Program-made: the position numbers and the translations under genes
The notes under the pieces: model-generated
The model's input: only the letters and a program-made list of their open reading frames with translations
Told to the model about the DNA's origin: nothing
The model's database searches: none
In this document: piece after piece, positions 9,003 through 47,679 of the stretch
Layout of the letters: each line of letters opens with the position of its first letter
Position numbering within the stretch: the first letter of the stretch is position 1
Assembly: GCF_900103255.1 (NCBI RefSeq)
Contig: NZ_FMWS01000008.1
Span: 1 to 64,000, forward strand
Source: Gilliamella bombi
Lineage (GTDB): Bacteria > Pseudomonadota > Gammaproteobacteria > Enterobacterales > Orbaceae
Reading direction: 5' to 3'
Length of the DNA: 64,000 nt

Positions 9003-9755
9003 CTAAATTTCAAAATCAATTTCGTCAGTTAGCTGGCGTAAAAATCGTTGCGTAATTTCATTTTGAGGATTATCGATGACTGATTTTGCTGATCCCTCTT
9101 CGATAATCATTCCTTCAGCCATAAAGATAATTCTATCTGCAACGTACTTAGCAAACTCCATTTCATGAGTTACTATAATCATAGTAATACGTTCTTTTGC
9201 TAGCTGTAGCATGACTTGCAATACTTCGTGTACTCGTTCAGGATCGAGTGCAGAAGTCGGTTCATCAAATAATAATACATTTGGTTTAACAGCTAAAGCT
9301 CTTGCAATTGCAACACGTTGTTGTTGACCACCCGATAAAGTGATGGGATATTGTGTTGCGTATGGCAACATACCGACTCGTTCTAATAATGATAATCCTT
9401 GTTGTTTTGCTTTGGTTTTATCCATTTTTTGACCAACAATTAATGGATAAGTTATATTTTCTAATGCTGTTTTATTTTTAAATAAATTATAGTGTTGAAA
9501 AACCATAGCGGACTGTTTTCGTAAGTTGCTTTCTTCTTTAATACTATAATGCTTACTATTAAGTGATACAGTTCCTATTTTGATAGTGCCTGTATTTGGT
9601 TTTTCTAGTAAATTTAAACAACGTAACAGAGTTGATTTTCCTGAGCCTGATGGGCCAATAATGGCAACAACTTCACCTTGTTTTATATTTAAGTTGATGT
9701 CTTTTAATACTTCATTATTTGCAAAACGTTTAGATAAATGCGAAACAGAAATCAT
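9003..9755 (-). CDS. Amino-acid ABC transporter ATP-binding protein
   Basis: The ATPase of a polar amino-acid importer, 250 residues from ATG 9755; an upstream in-frame start would run back into the permease gene. Walker A GPSGSGKST, Q-loop FQHYNLF, signature LSGGQQQR and Walker B LLFDEPTSALDP are intact. It is closest in style to the cystine/polar amino-acid transporters (TcyN, GlnQ type). It is the last gene of the five-gene leftward operon, 11 bases after the permease, and ends 37 bases from the convergent MmgE/PrpD gene. Confidence 0.92.
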   Translation of the reverse strand: MISVSHLSKRFANNEVLKDINLNIKQGEVVAIIGPSGSGKSTLLRCLNLLEKPNTGTIKIGTVSLNSKHYSIKEESNLRKQSAMVFQHYNLFKNKTALENITYPLIVGQKMDKTKAKQQGLSLLERVGMLPYATQYPITLSGGQQQRVAIARALAVKPNVLLFDEPTSALDPERVHEVLQVMLQLAKERITMIIVTHEMEFAKYVADRIIFMAEGMIIEEGSAKSVIDNPQNEITQRFLRQLTDEIDFEI

Positions 9756-9766
9756 AACCTTACTCC

Positions 9767-10438
9767 TTAACGATGATAAGGTATACTGAGCTTTTGCTCT
9801 AATTGTTTTTGTATCCAAGAATAGGCAACAACAGTTAGCCAGTAAACAATACCTACAGCTAAATAGGTTTCGAAGTAGAGGAATGAGTTAGCAGTTAACA
9901 TTTTCCCCGATGCTAATAGTTCTTGCACGCCAACAAAAAAGGCAACAGATGAATCTTTAAGTAATGAAATGAACATATTGCCGGCGTTTGGTAGAGCATT
10001 GACCATAGCTTGTGGTAGTATAATACCTCGATAAACTTGTATTTTACTTAAACCAACGGTTATTCCTGCCTCTTTCTGCCCCTGATCAACGGACTTTAAA
10101 CTTGCTCGGAAAATTTCAGCTAAATAGGACGAATATTTTAAACTGAAGCAGATAATGGCTGCTGTTGTAGCGCCCATTTGTTTTAAAACAGGAAAAATTT
10201 GTGGTAATCCGTAATAAATAATAAACAGTAAAACAACAGAAGGTATTCCTCGAAACAGTGAAATAAACAGTGCAAAAAACGAATCGATAATGATTATTTT
10301 ATTGCTACGTAATAGTGCAATCGCAAGTCCAAATATAATGGCAAACATAATCGATATGATGGTAATAAAAAGTGTAACAGGCAGATAAGGTAATATCTGC
10401 GGAAATACACTTAAAAAATAGTTTACATTAAAATTCAT
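9767..10438 (-). CDS. Amino-acid ABC transporter permease
   Basis: A 223-residue inner-membrane protein of the His/Glu/Gln/Arg permease family with about five transmembrane helices and the EAA cytoplasmic loop (residues about 133-160, EAGITVGLSKIQVYRGIILPQA) that contacts the ATPase. Its start overlaps the stop of the binding-protein gene by four bases (ATGA). With only one permease gene in the operon, the channel is presumably a homodimer. Confidence 0.92.
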   Translation of the reverse strand: MNFNVNYFLSVFPQILPYLPVTLFITIISIMFAIIFGLAIALLRSNKIIIIDSFFALFISLFRGIPSVVLLFIIYYGLPQIFPVLKQMGATTAAIICFSLKYSSYLAEIFRASLKSVDQGQKEAGITVGLSKIQVYRGIILPQAMVNALPNAGNMFISLLKDSSVAFFVGVQELLASGKMLTANSFLYFETYLAVGIVYWLTVVAYSWIQKQLEQKLSIPYHR

Positions 10439-39986: not shown

Positions 39987-40002
39987 TATGATCTAAATCA
40001 CA
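39987..40002 (+). promoter_or_regulatory. Candidate CRP site
   Basis: TATGA-TCTAAA-TCACA matches the CRP consensus TGTGA-N6-TCACA at nine of ten positions. It lies about 190 bases upstream of the first gene of the sugar-acid operon. A second TGTGA half-site occurs about 15 bases before it. Catabolite control would suit this operon. Confidence 0.55.
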
Positions 40003-40190
40003 AAATTGAACATAGATTTAATCAATAAATAGTTGTATCAAGAGTAACAATTCTTGCTTATTGCTGTATTTAGCAAACTTTATAATAAATTTCCTCTTGC
40101 AGACGGAAAAATTCTCTATCCACATTAAGCCTTGATTGATTTACGCTTATTCTATCCAATTCAAAAAACAATAAGAGATATGTATTAGCT

Positions 40191-40520
40191 ATGAACCCAA
40201 TAAAATTTCGAATGATCGAGGATAATTTAGAACCAGAGTTAGTTACTGAACAAACCATTACGATCATCAATAGTTGGTTAGTACAGCATCAAATCATACA
40301 AAATGATGTTCAAAAAGCGATGTTATTTTCACATGTAAAAGCTATGGTTGAAAGGGCCAAAACATTAGAAACATTACCTGAAGTCGACCCTGGGTTATTT
40401 GATGAACTTTCAGAAGAATCTTTAGAACTGGCAAGAAAAACAATAAACTTATTTGATAATTTACCGATAGAAGAAGCATATTTATTGGCAGTTCATTATG
40501 AAGTAGCTAAAGCAAATTAA
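40191..40520 (+). CDS. Stand-alone PRD-like protein
   Basis: A 109-residue, mostly helical, acidic protein without a DNA-binding domain. Its pattern (helices around FSHVKAMVERAKTLE and PIEEAYLLAVHYEVA, with His at conserved-looking positions) resembles a single PTS-regulation domain as found in BglG and LevR-type regulators. It is first in the operon, 46 bases before the SFCGS gene, while a full PRD regulator ends the operon. It may be a phosphorylatable co-regulator or a sensor part of the transport system; its function is not established. Confidence 0.65.
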   Translation: MNPIKFRMIEDNLEPELVTEQTITIINSWLVQHQIIQNDVQKAMLFSHVKAMVERAKTLETLPEVDPGLFDELSEESLELARKTINLFDNLPIEEAYLLAVHYEVAKAN

Positions 40521-40566
40521 ACGATTACTAGACAAGTAAAAAACAATAATTAATAGGAGAAATATT

Positions 40567-40935
40567 ATGGCAGAAGTAGTTATTGTTATCGGCGATAGAA
40601 TGGGAAAAGGGCAAAAAATTGCGGAGGGAATTAACTCAGTAGAAGGTTGTCGTGCAATCGTCATTCCAGGTATGGCAGCAGATATGAAATTAGGTGATGT
40701 AATGAATAAAGAAAATGCCGATTTGGGCCTTTCATTTTGTGGTAGTGGTGGAGCTGGTGCTATTACTGCACAAAATAAATATGGCTATTCACAACGCCAT
40801 GGTATGCGATCAATTGAGGAAGGTGAAACAGCTATTAATGACGGCTGTAAAGTTCTTGGTTTTGGTTTTATGGACACGGAAGAATTAGGACAACGTGTAG
40901 CAAAAGCATTTCTTAAAAAATATTCACGTTCATAA
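40567..40935 (+). CDS. Glycine-rich SFCGS family protein
   Basis: A 122-residue cytosolic protein of the family named for its LSFCGSGGAGAIT motif (residues about 58-70). It begins with a beta strand and a glycine turn (VVIVIGDRMGKGQ), suggesting a small Rossmann-like fold, and has a single conserved cysteine. Size and topology recall PTS EIIB proteins, but homology to them is not shown. The family occurs only in clusters like this one in distant bacteria (Enterococcus, Aeromonas, enterobacteria). A GGAG site precedes it, and the DUF4312 gene follows after 13 bases. Confidence 0.85.
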   Translation: MAEVVIVIGDRMGKGQKIAEGINSVEGCRAIVIPGMAADMKLGDVMNKENADLGLSFCGSGGAGAITAQNKYGYSQRHGMRSIEEGETAINDGCKVLGFGFMDTEELGQRVAKAFLKKYSRS

Positions 40936-40948
40936 ACGGTAAATAAGA

Positions 40949-41245
40949 ATGAAAAAAACAGAACAAATACTTGTTAGAGTAAAAGGTCATGGTGATTCTA
41001 AGCAGCGAGCTTTTGCTATAGCTTTAAGTCAGGTTCAGAAAGAAGTACTCAAAAACATTAATAATATTATGTTGCGAATAGAACCAATTGATATTCAAGT
41101 TGTATCAGCAATAGAAAAGATAACAACAGAACGTTTTTTGTTTATCTTTTTGCCAAGGAAAAAGACATTTTATGAAATCACGCTTGATGTATCTGTTAAC
41201 GTAATTTTTATTGATTTAAATGATATTAAATTTACTTCAAAATAA
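40949..41245 (+). CDS. DUF4312 family protein
   Basis: A 98-residue protein without signal or membrane segment. It opens with EQILVRVKGHGDSKQRAFAIALSQVQKEVL and ends in beta-rich hydrophobic sequence (FYEITLDVSVNVIFIDL). The family has no known function and always accompanies the SFCGS, DUF4311 and DUF4310 genes. The likely role is a cytosolic subunit of the putative transporter encoded by the next two genes. Confidence 0.82.
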   Translation: MKKTEQILVRVKGHGDSKQRAFAIALSQVQKEVLKNINNIMLRIEPIDIQVVSAIEKITTERFLFIFLPRKKTFYEITLDVSVNVIFIDLNDIKFTSK

Positions 41246-41265
41246 CATAACGTAAAAGGGAAGTT

Positions 41266-42018
41266 ATGGAAATTTTAATTATTGCATTCAAGTCTATTAT
41301 TATCGGCGGACTTTGTGGTTTTGGGGTCGGTGCGGGAGCTGCTCGAATGTTTCATGCGCCAACTTATCAAGGGATGGGTGCGTTTCGGACATTAGGTGAA
41401 CTTAATTCTTGTGAAGGTGATCCTGCAGCGCACTTTTCATTTGGTTTAGGGTTTTTTTTTAATGCGTGGGCTTCATCGGTTGCTGCTGGTTCTTTTACTC
41501 AAGACGTTGATCATCGCATCATCCCTAACTGGGGTGGAGCTTTATTGATGATAAAAAATCGTAATCTTGCAGAAACCTTACATGATCCTAAAAAAATGGC
41601 ATTTGCTTGTGCATTTATTGGGATGATTGTGGTGTTATTTTTAAATACAACCACTTCAGTTATTCCTGATTCGCTAAAAATTACTGCAACGAAGGTTCTT
41701 GTTCCTGCCGCTAACTTGTTAGTTGCAACGGTTATGCCTGTTATTTTCTGGTTAGCCGCTCTAGATGCAGGGCGTCGTAGTGGATTTTGGGGAACGTTAT
41801 TTGGTGGGCTTGCACAGTTAATTATGGGCAATGCAGTACCAGGGTTGGTGTTGGGTATATTGATTGGCAAAGGTGTAGATGATAGTGGCTGGAACCGTGT
41901 GATGAAAATCATGTTAGTTGCTGTCATTATTTTATTTGTTATGAGTGGATATTTCCGTGGTTTTGATTTGAAGATGATTAACTCGTTTAGAGATGGTTTA
42001 TCTTATTGGTTTAAATAA
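41266..42018 (+). CDS. DUF4311 family membrane protein
   Basis: A 250-residue polytopic membrane protein with about six hydrophobic segments, rich in Gly and Ala. A long conserved polar stretch lies between the first helices (FHAPTYQGMGAFRTLGELNSCEGDPAAH) and could line a substrate site. Function unknown. It precedes the DUF4310 gene by 14 bases; the pair probably forms a two-component membrane domain, as seen for split EIIC/EIID proteins, though no sequence link to those is claimed. Confidence 0.83.
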   Translation: MEILIIAFKSIIIGGLCGFGVGAGAARMFHAPTYQGMGAFRTLGELNSCEGDPAAHFSFGLGFFFNAWASSVAAGSFTQDVDHRIIPNWGGALLMIKNRNLAETLHDPKKMAFACAFIGMIVVLFLNTTTSVIPDSLKITATKVLVPAANLLVATVMPVIFWLAALDAGRRSGFWGTLFGGLAQLIMGNAVPGLVLGILIGKGVDDSGWNRVMKIMLVAVIILFVMSGYFRGFDLKMINSFRDGLSYWFK

Positions 42019-42032
42019 TATAGGGACACATT

Positions 42033-42686
42033 ATGAATACACAAACAATGGTCAATAAAAGTTTTTGGTATGCCGATTGGTCTTTCCCTATTATTTGTGG
42101 GCTATTATCTGCCGGTATTTTTGCTGGAACGCATACATTCTATGTGTACGGTATTGGTGCATTTAATGAAATTGCATTTGTTGCTATGCTCAAATCAGGA
42201 ATGACCACTGGCGATTATGGCGCTGTTGCGGCTTTTGGTGCTAGTTTTTTATTTGCTCGTGTTATTGAGGGTTCCTTGGTCGGCATTTTAGATATCGGTG
42301 GTGCATTGCAAACAGGTATTGGGCTTGGTGTACCTGCGTTACTGCTAGCTGGCGGCTATACTTTACCTATTGAAAATTTTTTTGCAGCGTTAGCAACTGG
42401 ATTGATATTAGGTGTGCTTATAGGCTTAATTATTATTATTATCCGTAAATTCACTGTCAATAGTGGTGGTGGTTCGACTTTTGGTGCTGATGTCATGATG
42501 GGGGCAGGTAATGCATCAGGACGATTTCTTGGTCCTATGATTATTTTATCTGCGATGGTTGCTTCAATTCCTATTGGTACCGGTTCATTATTGGGGGCGC
42601 TACTTTTTTATGTATGGAAAAAACCAATCACAGGTGGAGCTATTTTAGGTGCTATGATTTTTGGTGGTATATTTCCAATTTTATAA
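42033..42686 (+). CDS. DUF4310 family membrane protein
   Basis: A 217-residue polytopic membrane protein with about six hydrophobic segments. Conserved-looking polar motifs are GIGAFNEIAFVAMLKSGMTTGDYG and NSGGGSTFGADVMMGAGNASG. It is the partner of the preceding DUF4311 protein in all clusters of this type that I know. There is no ABC ATPase, no PTS EIIC signature and no classical secondary-transporter motif in the operon, so the energy source of the putative transporter is unknown. The gap of 58 bases to the enzyme genes is the largest within the operon after the start. Confidence 0.83.
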   Translation: MNTQTMVNKSFWYADWSFPIICGLLSAGIFAGTHTFYVYGIGAFNEIAFVAMLKSGMTTGDYGAVAAFGASFLFARVIEGSLVGILDIGGALQTGIGLGVPALLLAGGYTLPIENFFAALATGLILGVLIGLIIIIIRKFTVNSGGGSTFGADVMMGAGNASGRFLGPMIILSAMVASIPIGTGSLLGALLFYVWKKPITGGAILGAMIFGGIFPIL

Positions 42687-42744
42687 TATTAGTTATTCCC
42701 CTCTGTAATTTATTAAATTGCAAAGAGGGGATTCGGAATAAATT

Positions 42745-43899
42745 ATGTATGATTTAATTATAAAAAATGCCAAACAAATTGATGAATCAGTAACAGATAT
42801 TGCTATTCATCATGGAAAGATTGTTGCGATTGCTAGTTCTATTACAGACCAATCTGAGCGTGTCTTAGATCTACAAAATAAGCACTATGTCAGTGCCGGA
42901 TGGATTGATTCACACACCCATTGTTTTGCTCGTTCACCTATTTATCATGATGAGCCTGATTTGATCGGCGTTAAAGCTGGTGTTACCGCGGTTGTTGATG
43001 CTGGTAGCATTGGAGCTATCGATGTAGATGAGTTTTATCAATTAGCTCAGCAAGCAAGTACACATGTTTACTCTTTCTTAAATATTTCTAAAATCGGGTT
43101 ATTAAGGCAAAGTGAACTGGCCGATTTACAAAATATTGATTTATCATTATTTGATTCGGCATTAGCTAAGTATCCCGATTTTATTATTGGGATCAAAGTG
43201 CGAATGAGCCGTAGTGTAGTAGGTGGAAATGGCATTTTACCCTTAATTAAAGCTAAAGAAATGCAAAAAAAGAGTGGTTTACCTTTAATGATCCATGTTG
43301 GCAATAATCCTCCAGAGCTTGATGAAATTGCTGATTTGTTAACAAAAGGTGACATTATTACACATTGTTTTAATGGTAAACCCAATCAAATCTTTGATAA
43401 ACAAAATAAACTGCGTGGTTCAATTAAACGAGCAATTGAACGTGGTGTGATATTGGATGTCGGTCATGGTGGTGAAAGTTTTAGTTTTTCAGTAGCAGAA
43501 CGAGCTAAATGCTTAGATATTTATCCTAATACTATTAGCTCTGATATTTATTCTAAAAACCGTTTACAGGGACCAGTTTTTAGTCTGGCTAATGTGATGA
43601 CAAAGTTTATCTGTCTTGGTTATAGTCGAAAAAGAATCATTGATAGTGTGACGAAAAATGTGGCACAAGTTTTGCAACTTAAAAATAAAGGTGTTTTATC
43701 GGTTGGTTATGATGCAGATTTGACTATTTTTGATATTAGACAGCAAACAGTTTCATTATTAGATTCAGAAGGTGAAGTTAGACAAAGTGATGAGCAATTT
43801 GTTCCTCTAGCCTCTATTGTTGCTGATGAGAAAAACCATTTGATACGAATTGAAATAACAGAAGAAGGTAGTAAAAATGAGCTCAGAATCTCAAACTGA
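42745..43899 (+). CDS. Amidohydrolase/deacetylase family metallohydrolase
   Basis: A 384-residue cytosolic TIM-barrel amidohydrolase with a complete binuclear metal set: His57 and His59 (DSHTHC), Lys151 (GIKVRMS, presumably carboxylated), His184 (MIHVGN), His207 (ITHCFNG) and catalytic Asp267 (SSDIYSKN). Such enzymes hydrolyse N-acyl or cyclic amide bonds. In this operon the sensible role is removing an N-acyl group from an amino-sugar acid before the ammonia-lyase step. Its 3' end overlaps the next gene by 23 bases. Confidence 0.87.
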   Translation: MYDLIIKNAKQIDESVTDIAIHHGKIVAIASSITDQSERVLDLQNKHYVSAGWIDSHTHCFARSPIYHDEPDLIGVKAGVTAVVDAGSIGAIDVDEFYQLAQQASTHVYSFLNISKIGLLRQSELADLQNIDLSLFDSALAKYPDFIIGIKVRMSRSVVGGNGILPLIKAKEMQKKSGLPLMIHVGNNPPELDEIADLLTKGDIITHCFNGKPNQIFDKQNKLRGSIKRAIERGVILDVGHGGESFSFSVAERAKCLDIYPNTISSDIYSKNRLQGPVFSLANVMTKFICLGYSRKRIIDSVTKNVAQVLQLKNKGVLSVGYDADLTIFDIRQQTVSLLDSEGEVRQSDEQFVPLASIVADEKNHLIRIEITEEGSKNELRISN

Positions 43900-45016
43900 A
43901 AAAGATGTTTACAGTAAATATAACCTAAAAAAGGTAATTAATGCATCAGGACGAATGACAATTTTAGGTGTTTCAACGCCAAGGCCTGAAGTGGTCGATA
44001 CTGTATCCCATGGGCTAAATGAATATTTTGAAATTAAAGATTTGGTTGATAAAACAGGCCAATATATTGCTAAATTGCTTAATGTTGAAAATGCGGTGGT
44101 AGTATCATGTGCTTCTGCTGGTATTGCCCAAGCTGTTGCTGGATTAATTATTAAGGATGATCGCGATTTATTATTTAATTTACATTCATCTGACAAATAT
44201 GTCCCCCGTGAAATCATTGTTCCTAAAGGTCATAATGTTAATTTTGGTGCACCAATTGGCACAATGGTTTCTTTAGGTGGAGGGATTATTGTTGAAGCTG
44301 GTTATGCCAACGAGTGTAAGCCTGAGCATATTGAATCACTAATTAATCCAGATACTGCCGCAATTTTATATATTAAGTCACATCATTGTGTACAAAAAAG
44401 TATGTTGTCGGTTGCACAAACAGCAGCAATTGCAAAAAAACATAATGTCCCATTAATTGTTGATGCAGCGGCAGAAGAAGATTTACAAACTTATTATCAG
44501 CAAGGCGCAGATTTGGTTGTTTATAGTGGTGCTAAAGCAATCGAAGGGCCAACTAGTGGTTTGGTTATTGGTCGTCATCAGGCGGTGGAATGGTTAAAAC
44601 TACAATCACAAGGTATTGGCCGACCAATGAAAGTAGGAAAAGAAGGTATTTTAGGATTAACAAAAGCTATTGAACTTTATATTACTGATAAAAAGACTGA
44701 AACAGGACAGCAAATGGTGACTAAAATGACGCCATTTATTGAAAGCCTAAATACACTTGATGGAGTATCAGCCAGAGTCGTTTGGGATGGCGCAGGACGT
44801 GATATTGCGCGTGCAGAAATAACGTTTGATGCAAGTGTAATAGGTAAATCTGCAATTGAGATAGTTGACCTGATGAAAAAAGGCGAAATAGCAGTGTATT
44901 TCAGAGAATATAAAGCCAATGAAGGTAAAGTTGATGCCGATGTGCGTAGTGTAACATCAGCCCAACTCGATATTATTTACAACAAAATCAAAAATATTAT
45001 TCAAGGAGCAAAATAA
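43877..45016 (+). CDS. DgaE-like PLP-dependent ammonia-lyase
   Basis: A 379-residue fold-type I PLP enzyme related to selenocysteine synthase SelA, with the PLP lysine at about Lys220 (VYSGAKAIEGPTSG) and the cofactor aspartate in VDAAAEEDL. Its best-known relative, Salmonella DgaE, eliminates ammonia from D-glucosaminate-6-phosphate to give 2-keto-3-deoxygluconate-6-phosphate. The adjoining KDGP aldolase supports the same chemistry here. A GAAGG site lies inside the upstream gene; the stop touches the next start (ATAATG). Confidence 0.87.
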   Translation: MSSESQTEKDVYSKYNLKKVINASGRMTILGVSTPRPEVVDTVSHGLNEYFEIKDLVDKTGQYIAKLLNVENAVVVSCASAGIAQAVAGLIIKDDRDLLFNLHSSDKYVPREIIVPKGHNVNFGAPIGTMVSLGGGIIVEAGYANECKPEHIESLINPDTAAILYIKSHHCVQKSMLSVAQTAAIAKKHNVPLIVDAAAEEDLQTYYQQGADLVVYSGAKAIEGPTSGLVIGRHQAVEWLKLQSQGIGRPMKVGKEGILGLTKAIELYITDKKTETGQQMVTKMTPFIESLNTLDGVSARVVWDGAGRDIARAEITFDASVIGKSAIEIVDLMKKGEIAVYFREYKANEGKVDADVRSVTSAQLDIIYNKIKNIIQGAK

Positions 45017-45756
45017 TGCAACTGACTCCAAATTATTATAATGATCGTGTTTGTTTAAATGTTTTAGCAAATTCAATCGATAATGCAAAAGAGATTTATG
45101 AAGCGGCACAAAGTCATGTAGTTGTTGGTATCTTATCTAAAAACTATTCAGATAATGAATCGGCGATTGAGGATATGCAAAAATACGCCGCAGCTATCGA
45201 TAATGCTATTTCTGTGGGGCTTGGTGCAGGTGATCCAAATCAGTCAACTATGGTGTCTGAAATTTCAGCGGTACTTCAACCACAGCATATTAACCAAGTC
45301 TTCACGGGTGTTGCGACTAGCCGAGCATTGTTAGGACAAAAACAAACAATCATTAATGGTTTAGTTTCGCCGACAGGTAAAGTTGGTTTAGTTAATATTG
45401 CAACTGGACCTTTAAGCTCAAATTCGCCAGCAGGAGTTATTCCAGTGGAAACAGCTATCGCTTTACTGAAAGATATGGGCGGCAGTTCAATAAAATATTT
45501 TCCTATGGGAGGTCTAAAACATAAAGATGAATTTGAGTATGTGGCTAAGTGTTGTGCTGAGTACGATTTCTATCTTGAGCCGACAGGTGGAATTGATTTA
45601 GATAATTATGAAGCAATTTTAAAAATTGCCTTAGATGCAGGTGTAAAAAAAATTATTCCACACATCTATAGTTCTATTATTGACAAAGCGACTGGTGCAA
45701 CGCGAACCAATGATGTCAAACAACTTTTAGCTATCACACAAAAACTAGTAGGATAA
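45016..45756 (+). CDS. DgaF-like 2-keto-3-deoxygluconate-6-phosphate aldolase
   Basis: A 246-residue aldolase of the KDGP family. The SSIKYFPMGGLKH segment carries the probable Schiff-base lysine and phosphate site, and LEPTGGIDLDNY resembles the second active-site block of KDPG aldolases. It would cleave the DgaE product to pyruvate and glyceraldehyde-3-phosphate, feeding glycolysis (pgk, fbaA are in the same window). It directly abuts the lyase gene and the regulator gene, so all are cotranscribed. Confidence 0.87.
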   Translation: MQLTPNYYNDRVCLNVLANSIDNAKEIYEAAQSHVVVGILSKNYSDNESAIEDMQKYAAAIDNAISVGLGAGDPNQSTMVSEISAVLQPQHINQVFTGVATSRALLGQKQTIINGLVSPTGKVGLVNIATGPLSSNSPAGVIPVETAIALLKDMGGSSIKYFPMGGLKHKDEFEYVAKCCAEYDFYLEPTGGIDLDNYEAILKIALDAGVKKIIPHIYSSIIDKATGATRTNDVKQLLAITQKLVG

Positions 45757-47679
45757 ATGATGTCATCTAAAGTGCTTTTCTCTTATCAGCGATTAGCGTA
45801 TTTATTTGATACTATAAAAAAAGAGACACTACCTCAGCAAGAGTTAGCTAATCGCTTTTCAGTATCTACTCGCACAATTCGTACTGATGTTTCAGCACTT
45901 AACGATGTTTTACGTAGTTATGGTGCTCAAGTTGATTATACTAAAAATGTAGGATATCAACTTGTAGTAACCGATCCAGTCAGTTATGCTCAATTGCCTA
46001 TTACTCAAGCAATTGAGCAAGTACCAAGAACTAGTAAAGAAAGGGTTTCGGCTTTATTGATTGCTTTTTTAACACAGTCCAATTCTGTGAAATTGGATGA
46101 TATCGCTGATGAGTGGTTTTTAAGTCGCAGTACTTTACAAAATGATGTTATTGAGGTTAAACAATATTTAGATAAGTACAATTTATCTCTTGAAAATCGT
46201 CCTTATTATGGGATGTACTTAGTTGGAGAGGAGTCATCAATTCGAGCATGTTTAACTGATATATTGTGGCAACGTCATATGGCAGAAGATACTATAAACG
46301 TAAGCAGGCTTCGTCAGACAATATTAAATGATATTGATTTAGATTATCTTGAAAAGATTTTACAAAACCAACTTGAACGTTTTGAACTAAAGTTAAATGC
46401 TGAAGGACAGGGATATTTGCTTTACAGTTGCGCTGTATCTATTACTCGTATTACTCAAGGTTATGAGCTGCTTGAATATCAAGTTGATCAAATTAATACA
46501 ACAGTTATTAGTGCTGCACGTGAAATTTCAGAAGAGTTTTCATATTTTTTAGGCAGTGTACTTTGTGATGCGGAATTTAATTATCTGTGTGTACAAATTA
46601 TTTCTCGAATAATAACAGAATCCCCAAATCAAGCAAAAAGTTTGGCGTTAGTTGAGCATATATTATCTTATATTAATGATACATATCACTATAATTTATG
46701 GGATGATACTAAATTACGCCAAGATATGCTGATTCATACGTCATCAATGTTATCTAGGATAAAATATCAAATAAGAACAACCAATCCTTTATTGCATGAA
46801 ATTAAACAATATTATCCATTTGCTTATGATATTACGCTTTCTGCGTTAACTAATACAGAAAAGTACACCGAATCAAAAATGACAGAAGATGAAATAAGTT
46901 ATTTAGCCTTACATATTGGTGTAGCATTGGAGCGAAATTATAGTGCAGGGCATGAAAGATTTGCACAAATTCTATTAGTTAGTGAGCTCAGTAACTCAAC
47001 TTTGCGTATGGTTGAATCAAAAATTAAGAGAGATTTTCCGCATATCCAAATTAATCGTACACTTTCCTATCGAGAGTATGAGCAATTAACACAAATAGAA
47101 GAGGATTTTGTTGTATCAACTGTTCGCTTAACCGAAAAAGACAAACAAATTGTCAAAATAGCACCATTTCCGACAGCTTATCAGCTTGAACAATTAGGGC
47201 GATTGGCAATGGTTGATCGAAAAATGCCTTATATTATTGAACGTTTTTTTGATGAAAAGTTCTTTATTATTATTGATAAACCAATGACACAAAAAGAGAT
47301 TTTTAAAAGTATTTGTGTAAGGCTTGAACAATCAGGATATGTTGGTAGTGATTTTTATCCATCAGTTGTTGAGCGTGAAAAAATAGTCTCTACATTATTA
47401 GGTGAAAATATTGCTATTCCTCATTCAGTTGGATTGTTGGCAAGAAAAACTGTAGTTACGACTATTTTAGCACCACAAGGTATTGTTTGGGATAAAAATG
47501 AAGTTGCACATGTTATTTTTTTATTAGCAATTAGCAAAGATGAATATGAAGATGCTATGCGAATATATAATTTGTTTGTAAACTTTGTCAAAGAAAAGTC
47601 TACCAAACGTTTATTAGATAGCAGAACTTTTGATGATTTTCGAGCGATTATGAAAGATAGTTTGTGCCGATTATCATAA
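45757..47679 (+). CDS. BglG/MtlR-type regulator with PRD and EIIA domains
   Basis: A 640-residue regulator: N-terminal HTH_11 (LPQQELANRFSVSTRTIRTDVSAL), a second HTH (DDIADEWFLSRSTLQNDV), two PRDs (about 170-400, second with YLALHIGVALERN), an EIIB-like segment (about 405-490) whose cysteine is replaced (LLVSELSNS), and a C-terminal EIIA(Fru/Mtl) domain with His556 in GENIAIPHS. PTS phosphorylation of PRD and EIIA histidines should tune activity. It probably activates this operon. Its start follows the aldolase stop immediately; annotation as an antiterminator is less likely given its DNA-binding HTHs. Confidence 0.88.
   Translation: MMSSKVLFSYQRLAYLFDTIKKETLPQQELANRFSVSTRTIRTDVSALNDVLRSYGAQVDYTKNVGYQLVVTDPVSYAQLPITQAIEQVPRTSKERVSALLIAFLTQSNSVKLDDIADEWFLSRSTLQNDVIEVKQYLDKYNLSLENRPYYGMYLVGEESSIRACLTDILWQRHMAEDTINVSRLRQTILNDIDLDYLEKILQNQLERFELKLNAEGQGYLLYSCAVSITRITQGYELLEYQVDQINTTVISAAREISEEFSYFLGSVLCDAEFNYLCVQIISRIITESPNQAKSLALVEHILSYINDTYHYNLWDDTKLRQDMLIHTSSMLSRIKYQIRTTNPLLHEIKQYYPFAYDITLSALTNTEKYTESKMTEDEISYLALHIGVALERNYSAGHERFAQILLVSELSNSTLRMVESKIKRDFPHIQINRTLSYREYEQLTQIEEDFVVSTVRLTEKDKQIVKIAPFPTAYQLEQLGRLAMVDRKMPYIIERFFDEKFFIIIDKPMTQKEIFKSICVRLEQSGYVGSDFYPSVVEREKIVSTLLGENIAIPHSVGLLARKTVVTTILAPQGIVWDKNEVAHVIFLLAISKDEYEDAMRIYNLFVNFVKEKSTKRLLDSRTFDDFRAIMKDSLCRLS

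Follow-up and report, generated by a model that had tools for sequence, protein, structure and literature searches.

The ammonia lyase DgaE of Salmonella, one of the enzymes encoded by dga, acts on a 6-phosphate (PMC9529869). Genes for DgaE- and DgaF-type enzymes also occur in a cluster whose families appear in NCBI entries as the EF_0829-EF_0839 / AHA_3910-3917 cluster; five of these families carry the label "hypothetical equivalogs" and take their names from Enterococcus EF_0829-EF_0833 and Aeromonas AHA_3910-3914. None of the papers searched was found to assign a function to the cluster, which, having long been catalogued in this way, is uncharacterised rather than unseen. Here, the copy of this cluster in Gilliamella bombi was analysed within a window of 64,000 nt (assembly GCF_900103255.1, contig NZ_FMWS01000008.1, positions 1-64,000, forward strand). 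We propose, with about an even chance of being right, that it encodes a phosphorylating importer coupled to the phosphotransferase system (PTS) and built of non-classical subunits, together with the catabolism of an N-acetylated 2-amino-aldonic acid, under CRP and PTS control. The analysis shows the gene content, conservation, catalytic residues, the homology of the PRD and SFCGS proteins to proteins of yhf operons, the linkage of genes for HPr and enzyme I (EI) and, by model, the folds of SFCGS and DUF4312. Of the new results, three carry the most weight: the RpiB-like fold predicted for SFCGS, the module of PRD and cysteine protein common to the cluster and yhf operons, and the linked HPr and EI genes.

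Architecture of the operon

In the open reading frame (ORF) map of the window, the nine ORFs of the cluster all lie on the plus strand, at 40191-47679. They and the upstream site are as follows (PLP, pyridoxal 5'-phosphate; KDPG, 2-keto-3-deoxy-6-phosphogluconate).

39987..40002, + strand: CRP-like site TATGATCTAAATCACA, ~190 bp upstream of the first gene, with 1 mismatch to TGTGA-N6-TCACA
40191..40520, + strand: stand-alone PRD protein, 109 aa, EF_0829 type (TIGR03582); proposed phosphoryl carrier
40567..40935, + strand: SFCGS protein, 122 aa (TIGR03577/PF14272), with a predicted RpiB/LacAB-like fold; proposed EIIB-like Cys carrier
40949..41245, + strand: DUF4312 protein, 98 aa (TIGR03578/PF14189), with a dodecin-like beta-alpha-beta-beta fold in the model
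41266..42018, + strand: DUF4311 membrane protein, 250 aa (TIGR03580/PF14188), with hydrophobic segments; putative permease half
42033..42686, + strand: DUF4310 membrane protein, 217 aa (TIGR03579/PF14187), with hydrophobic segments; putative permease half
42745..43899, + strand: cog3964-type metallohydrolase, EF_0837 type (TIGR03583); proposed N-deacetylase
43877..45016, + strand: DgaE-type PLP ammonia lyase (TIGR01437), matching the Salmonella D-glucosaminate-6-phosphate ammonia lyase (DGL) 7lc0
45016..45756, + strand: DgaF-type KDPG aldolase, EF_0839 type (PF07071/TIGR03581), above the NF047796 cut-off
45757..47679, + strand: PRD/EIIA transcription regulator, 640 aa, with PRD, PTS_EIIA_2, Mga and HTH_11 domains

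The gaps from the first to the sixth gene are 46, 13, 20, 14 and 58 bp. The hydrolase and lyase genes overlap by 23 bp and the lyase and aldolase genes by 1 bp, and the aldolase and regulator genes abut with a gap of 0. An earlier reading made from the DNA letters (the sequence-only reading) had described a tight nine-gene operon of named families with a CRP-like site upstream. All of the ORFs were found, the Pfam and NCBIfam names agree, and the site is present and conserved among relatives, so this description holds.

Linkage to the phosphotransferase system

HPr and EI are encoded by one to a few genes per genome. On a plasmid of Bartonella sp. HY406, a gene for an HPr-EI fusion lies 65 bp after the cassette regulator. 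In a Bacillota-type genome (G558), genes for HPr and then EI follow the last operon gene on the same strand at a distance of 314 bp, and in a further genome (G754, L162:15743-16000), an HPr gene is the last gene of a yhf operon. As these genes are so few per genome, chance is, on a rough estimate, an unlikely explanation for three such cases among a few tens of lineages. An EI domain was detected in all nine cassette genomes tested as well as on the Bartonella plasmid. No kinase gene was found in the window, Klebsiella or Bartonella operons. A phosphorylating importer would explain together the linked HPr and EI genes, the operons without a kinase, and the 6-phosphate substrate of the Salmonella lyase.

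The sequence-only reading had postulated a new transporter class in which the four SFCGS and DUF proteins take the place of the PTS permease. This idea is partly supported: the four proteins do stand in for a classical permease. Routine co-occurrence with another complete permease was looked for and is not the case, the exceptions being E. faecalis and two Bacillota loci. The module probably does not replace the PTS itself, however: dedicated HPr and EI genes in two lineages, the HPr gene in a yhf relative, EI in all tested genomes, and the need of DgaE and DgaF for a 6-phosphate in a window operon that has no kinase make independence from the PTS unlikely.

A module shared with yhf operons

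Genes for YhfT adjoin a gene for DUF2620 (YhfU). A YhfZ-type regulator is followed by a stand-alone PRD, YhfU and YhfT and then by differing enzymes in Cetobacterium and in most Bacillota loci that were examined. The cassette and yhf proteins were compared by use of 12- and 13-sequence profiles, with block-shuffled and reversed controls. SFCGS matched YhfU from end to end (P 2e-6), as did the cassette PRD, over the aligned region, the yhf PRD (P 4e-7); in neither comparison did any of 60 controls score as high. DUF4310 showed a weak match to YhfT (C-terminal half) at P 0.012, at which homology is not proven. DUF4311 had no significant similarity to YhfT, and DUF4312 had none to YhfU. The first PRD histidine was kept in 12 of 12 yhf PRDs.

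Since PRD and SFCGS are homologous to the yhf PRD and YhfU, a PRD, a cysteine protein and a membrane protein appear to constitute a reusable module. Since the first two stay with a membrane protein while the regulator and enzymes change, they are probably parts of the permease. The occurrence of PRD and SFCGS as a single ORF in one locus (L117) counts in favour of the proposed PTS-coupled importer.

Structural models of the soluble and membrane proteins

Two histidines of the stand-alone PRD (H48 and H102) are invariant in 29 members, and C58 of SFCGS is invariant in its family alignment. SFCGS and DUF4312 were modelled together as a natural single ORF of Providencia stuartii (L052), with a predicted local distance difference test score (pLDDT) of 87. 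In this model, the SFCGS half adopts an RpiB/LacAB fold (Foldseek E 3e-5; VIA Z 12.6, root mean square deviation [rmsd] 3.2 over 119 residues), and the best 22 rows of the structure search were all of the RpiB/LacAB type. A profile comparison of SFCGS with RpiB (hhalign) gave P 9e-6, and C58 aligned with the RpiB active-site cysteine. In two genomes, SFCGS genes came near the PF02502 cut-off, the best (G454) remaining below it at 23.7 versus 24.7 bits. The His-Asn active-site motif of RpiB is absent from the SFCGS alignment, so a normal isomerase function is unlikely. Pfam EIIB, EIIC and EIID gave no match to SFCGS at E<=1.

The DUF4312 half was modelled with a beta-alpha-beta-beta topology and had a single structure match, 2cz8 (Z 7.3, rmsd 2.6, 65/66 residues), which we take to be a dodecin. 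No DUF4312 alignment member matched the dodecin Pfam family; we tentatively regard the modelled fold as dodecin-like. In the structural comparison with EIIB/EIIC and ECF (energy-coupling factor) folds that the sequence-only reading suggested, the models of SFCGS and DUF4312 resemble RpiB and dodecin, and neither an EIIB/EIIC nor an ECF part.

The DUF4311 model was of low confidence (pLDDT 69), and a fold search gave no confident match. None of the listed DUF4311 fold matches was an EIIC, Man-PTS or ECF S-component protein, the model being too weak to exclude these. No alignment member of DUF4310, DUF4311 or DUF4312 matched Pfam EIIB, EIIC or EIID at E<=5. The C-terminal half of DUF4311 showed a weak similarity to DUF2232 (PF09991) membrane proteins (P 8e-4, 0/50 controls), and DUF2232 matches were present in 26 of 28 DUF4311 members at E<=5 (best, 2e-4). 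A comparison of DUF4311 with DUF4310 as an internal duplication was not significant. Among the nine window proteins, none matched ECF ATPase subunits or EcfT, although group II ECF transporters may have the genes for these at another locus.

Catabolic enzymes and the probable substrate

Each of the binuclear-site residues of the hydrolase (H57, H59, K151, H184, H207 and D267) was conserved in at least 98% of 88 sequences, and the protein matched 2ICS, 2OGJ and 8WZY over its full length. The lyase, aligned with Salmonella DGL (7lc0), retains the H169/H170 pair and the PLP lysine K220, all of which are conserved. The aldolase scored 393 bits, above the cut-off of 300 for the KDPG aldolase DgaF (NF047796). 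The earlier assignments of a metallohydrolase with an intact binuclear site and of a DgaE-like lyase with a DgaF-like aldolase are therefore upheld, with all six ligands conserved and the catalytic residues kept; that a deacetylase-type hydrolase belongs to the system agrees with its presence in nearly all of ~100 loci.

Ornelas et al. are said to have reported in 2013 that relatives of the hydrolase cleave acetyl-(R)-mandelate and, weakly, N-acetyl-D-serine. C2 of D-glucosaminate has the R configuration. In 11 enterobacterial loci, the operon also contains a gene for a lactonase (PF10282) whose start resembles a signal peptide; such a gene would suit an aldonic acid able to form a lactone. 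The leading candidate, and most likely the substrate, is N-acetyl-D-glucosaminate. The best reading is that the imported species would be N-acetyl-D-glucosaminate-6-phosphate or a stereoisomer of it, to be fed to the deacetylase, lyase and aldolase.

Distribution, conservation and regulation

A pattern scan of GTDB genomes found at least 498 loci that encode a relative; the cluster is therefore not restricted to this genome. DUF4311 scored above the cut-off in 12 of 398 sampled genomes of its own phylum and in 7 of 398 sampled genomes of the phylum of a Lactobacillales metagenome-assembled genome. The DUF4311 sequences of G. bombi and Gilliamella intestini are identical. The loci form 7 to 17 clusters at 80-90% DUF4311 identity, so independent lineages are far fewer than loci. 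Across ~100 loci in Proteobacteria and Bacillota, the order PRD-SFCGS-DUF4312-DUF4311-DUF4310 is kept; in nearly all of them hydrolase, DgaE and DgaF follow DUF4310. The gene for the PRD/EIIA regulator either precedes or follows this set, and in some Bacillota loci the hydrolase comes first. The E. coli genomes searched contained no cassette copy, the sole match being of 77-86 bp, and a scan of IMG/VR gave no match to DUF4311. Weak DUF4311 matches outside the cluster were rejected: that in L013 is a DjlA-like glycine-rich protein (L014 is similar in appearance), and that in L111 is a major facilitator superfamily protein.

Individual loci depart from the common pattern. In Aeromonas caviae (L018:9732-10343), an in-frame deletion fuses the DUF4310 start to DgaF, with loss of the hydrolase and lyase. 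The BLAST map showed no DgaF aldolase for five Xenorhabdus loci (L047, L060, L061, L065 and L073), whose cassettes may rely on a housekeeping KDPG aldolase. A HAD-type phosphatase gene (PF08282) is last in three operons (L113, L115 and L118), after DgaF. In genome G673 (L117:10634-11383 and 9605-10321), which carries the PRD and SFCGS in one ORF, the DUF4311 gene has a TAG codon in frame at a position that is Trp in relatives, and this copy is perhaps decaying.

Of 96 relatives, 25 have a CRP-like site with at most 1 mismatch in the 350 bp upstream, often at a similar distance, versus 1.1% of shuffled regions; the related Gilliamella copies among them are not independent. The window regulator has PRD H327/H386 and EIIA H556. 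Together, the site and the regulator fit a sugar operon under PTS control.

Proposed mechanism and alternatives

In the mechanism that we propose, EI and HPr would pass phosphate to the stand-alone PRD (at H48 and perhaps H102), from which it would move to the active-site Cys58 of the RpiB-fold SFCGS. SFCGS would then phosphorylate the substrate on its release inside by the DUF4311/DUF4310 membrane pair, with DUF4312 as a possible assembly or coupling part. Inside the cell, the metallohydrolase would take off the N-acetyl group, the DgaE-type lyase would eliminate ammonia to give KDPG, and the aldolase would cleave KDPG to pyruvate and glyceraldehyde-3-phosphate. We infer transport, phosphoryl transfer and its order, deacetylation, the substrate and the membrane fold from this context, and the SFCGS and DUF4312 folds are as modelled. 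More tentatively, and with clearly less than an even chance, the SFCGS/DUF43xx and yhf operons could share one new class of PTS permease, in which a stand-alone PRD would replace EIIA as the His phosphocarrier, an RpiB-fold protein would replace EIIB as the Cys phosphocarrier, and DUF4311 plus DUF4310, or YhfT, would be the translocator, with no subunit related to a known enzyme II.

Several observations weigh against the PTS-coupled importer. DUF4310, DUF4311, DUF4312 and SFCGS lack homology to known EIIB, EIIC and EIID, and with a weak DUF4311 model that gave no match, the case for transport rests on hydrophobicity and context. The second PRD histidine is absent in some yhf PRDs. HPr and EI genes adjoin just 2 of ~100 cassette loci and could serve the PRD regulator instead; all cassette genomes tested also carry classical EIIC genes, so the presence of EI is by itself a weak, nonspecific marker. 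The lyase, at 371 bits, falls below the equivalog cut-off of 600 for D-glucosaminate-6-phosphate ammonia lyase (NF047797), and its exact substrate may therefore differ. The E. faecalis operon adds a PTS EIIC, MupG and a PfkB kinase, and the related Bacillota loci L113 and L115 have KdgT, DUF1537-type kinase and PdxA genes upstream (L113:331-3688), separated in L113 from the cassette by a 464-bp gap. These extra genes could mean that the species concerned use different substrates or take the substrate up by a different route.

Some of these observations would suit a membrane pair working as a secondary transporter or channel of the usual, non-PTS kind. PRD and SFCGS would then only sense the PTS state and thereby switch the pair on or off, and the substrate would be phosphorylated by a kinase encoded at another place in the genome. 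PRDs are known as regulatory phosphorylation domains, the SFCGS fold is not that of EIIB, kinase genes accompany the cassette in E. faecalis and in the two Bacillota loci, and DUF4311 has its weak link to DUF2232 membrane proteins. We nonetheless consider this arrangement unlikely, although it is a serious competitor, given the kinase-free operons of the window, Klebsiella and Bartonella, the dedicated HPr and EI genes in two lineages, and the invariance of the SFCGS active-site cysteine. The fold and the aligned catalytic cysteine would also allow SFCGS to act as a genuine isomerase or epimerase of sugar phosphates, making the substrate ready for the lyase and leaving DUF4312, DUF4311 and DUF4310 alone as the permease; the missing His-Asn motif and the position of YhfU beside YhfT amid different enzymes, which links this kind of protein with the membrane component rather than with any single pathway, make this improbable. 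We give slightly less credence still to a membrane-bound sensor or assembly complex, with uptake of the substrate through a different permease. No transporter fold was recognised, and the further EIIC of E. faecalis and the upstream KdgT of two Bacillota loci could supply such a route, but extra permeases are exceptional, and the other loci have the cassette genes alone or with a lactonase.

If the PTS-coupled importer is correct, a class of phosphorylating sugar importer now annotated as "unknown" would be added to those recognised, and the E. coli yhf operon, an orphan so far, would gain a possible role. A regulatory PRD would be able to serve as a transport phosphocarrier, and gut and plant-associated bacteria would have a pathway for breaking down N-acetylated amino-sugar acids, of which oxidised chitin ends are an example.

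Comparison with known systems

The window hydrolase shares its metal site and full-length match with the cog3964 amidohydrolases 2ICS, 2OGJ and 8WZY. SFCGS has the fold and the active-site cysteine in common with the RpiB/LacAB isomerases but differs from them in scoring below the Pfam cut-off, in lacking the His-Asn motif, and in belonging to a pathway that needs no isomerisation step. The EF_0829-EF_0839 cluster of E. faecalis differs from the window operon by its additional PTS EIIC, MupG and kinase. In yhf operons of the E. coli type, a homologous PRD and cysteine protein stand beside a membrane protein, a SelA-like PLP enzyme and an amidohydrolase-type enzyme, as in the window; these operons have one membrane protein of ~430 aa rather than two, no DUF4312 that was found, and other catabolic enzymes. 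Salmonella dga has in common with the window operon a DgaE-type lyase with the His pair and PLP lysine, a DgaF-type aldolase, and PTS-linked catabolism. The window operon adds a deacetylase, and its lyase falls below the equivalog cut-off. Where Salmonella dga has a mannose-type enzyme II, the window operon has the PRD, SFCGS, DUF4312, DUF4311 and DUF4310 proteins instead.

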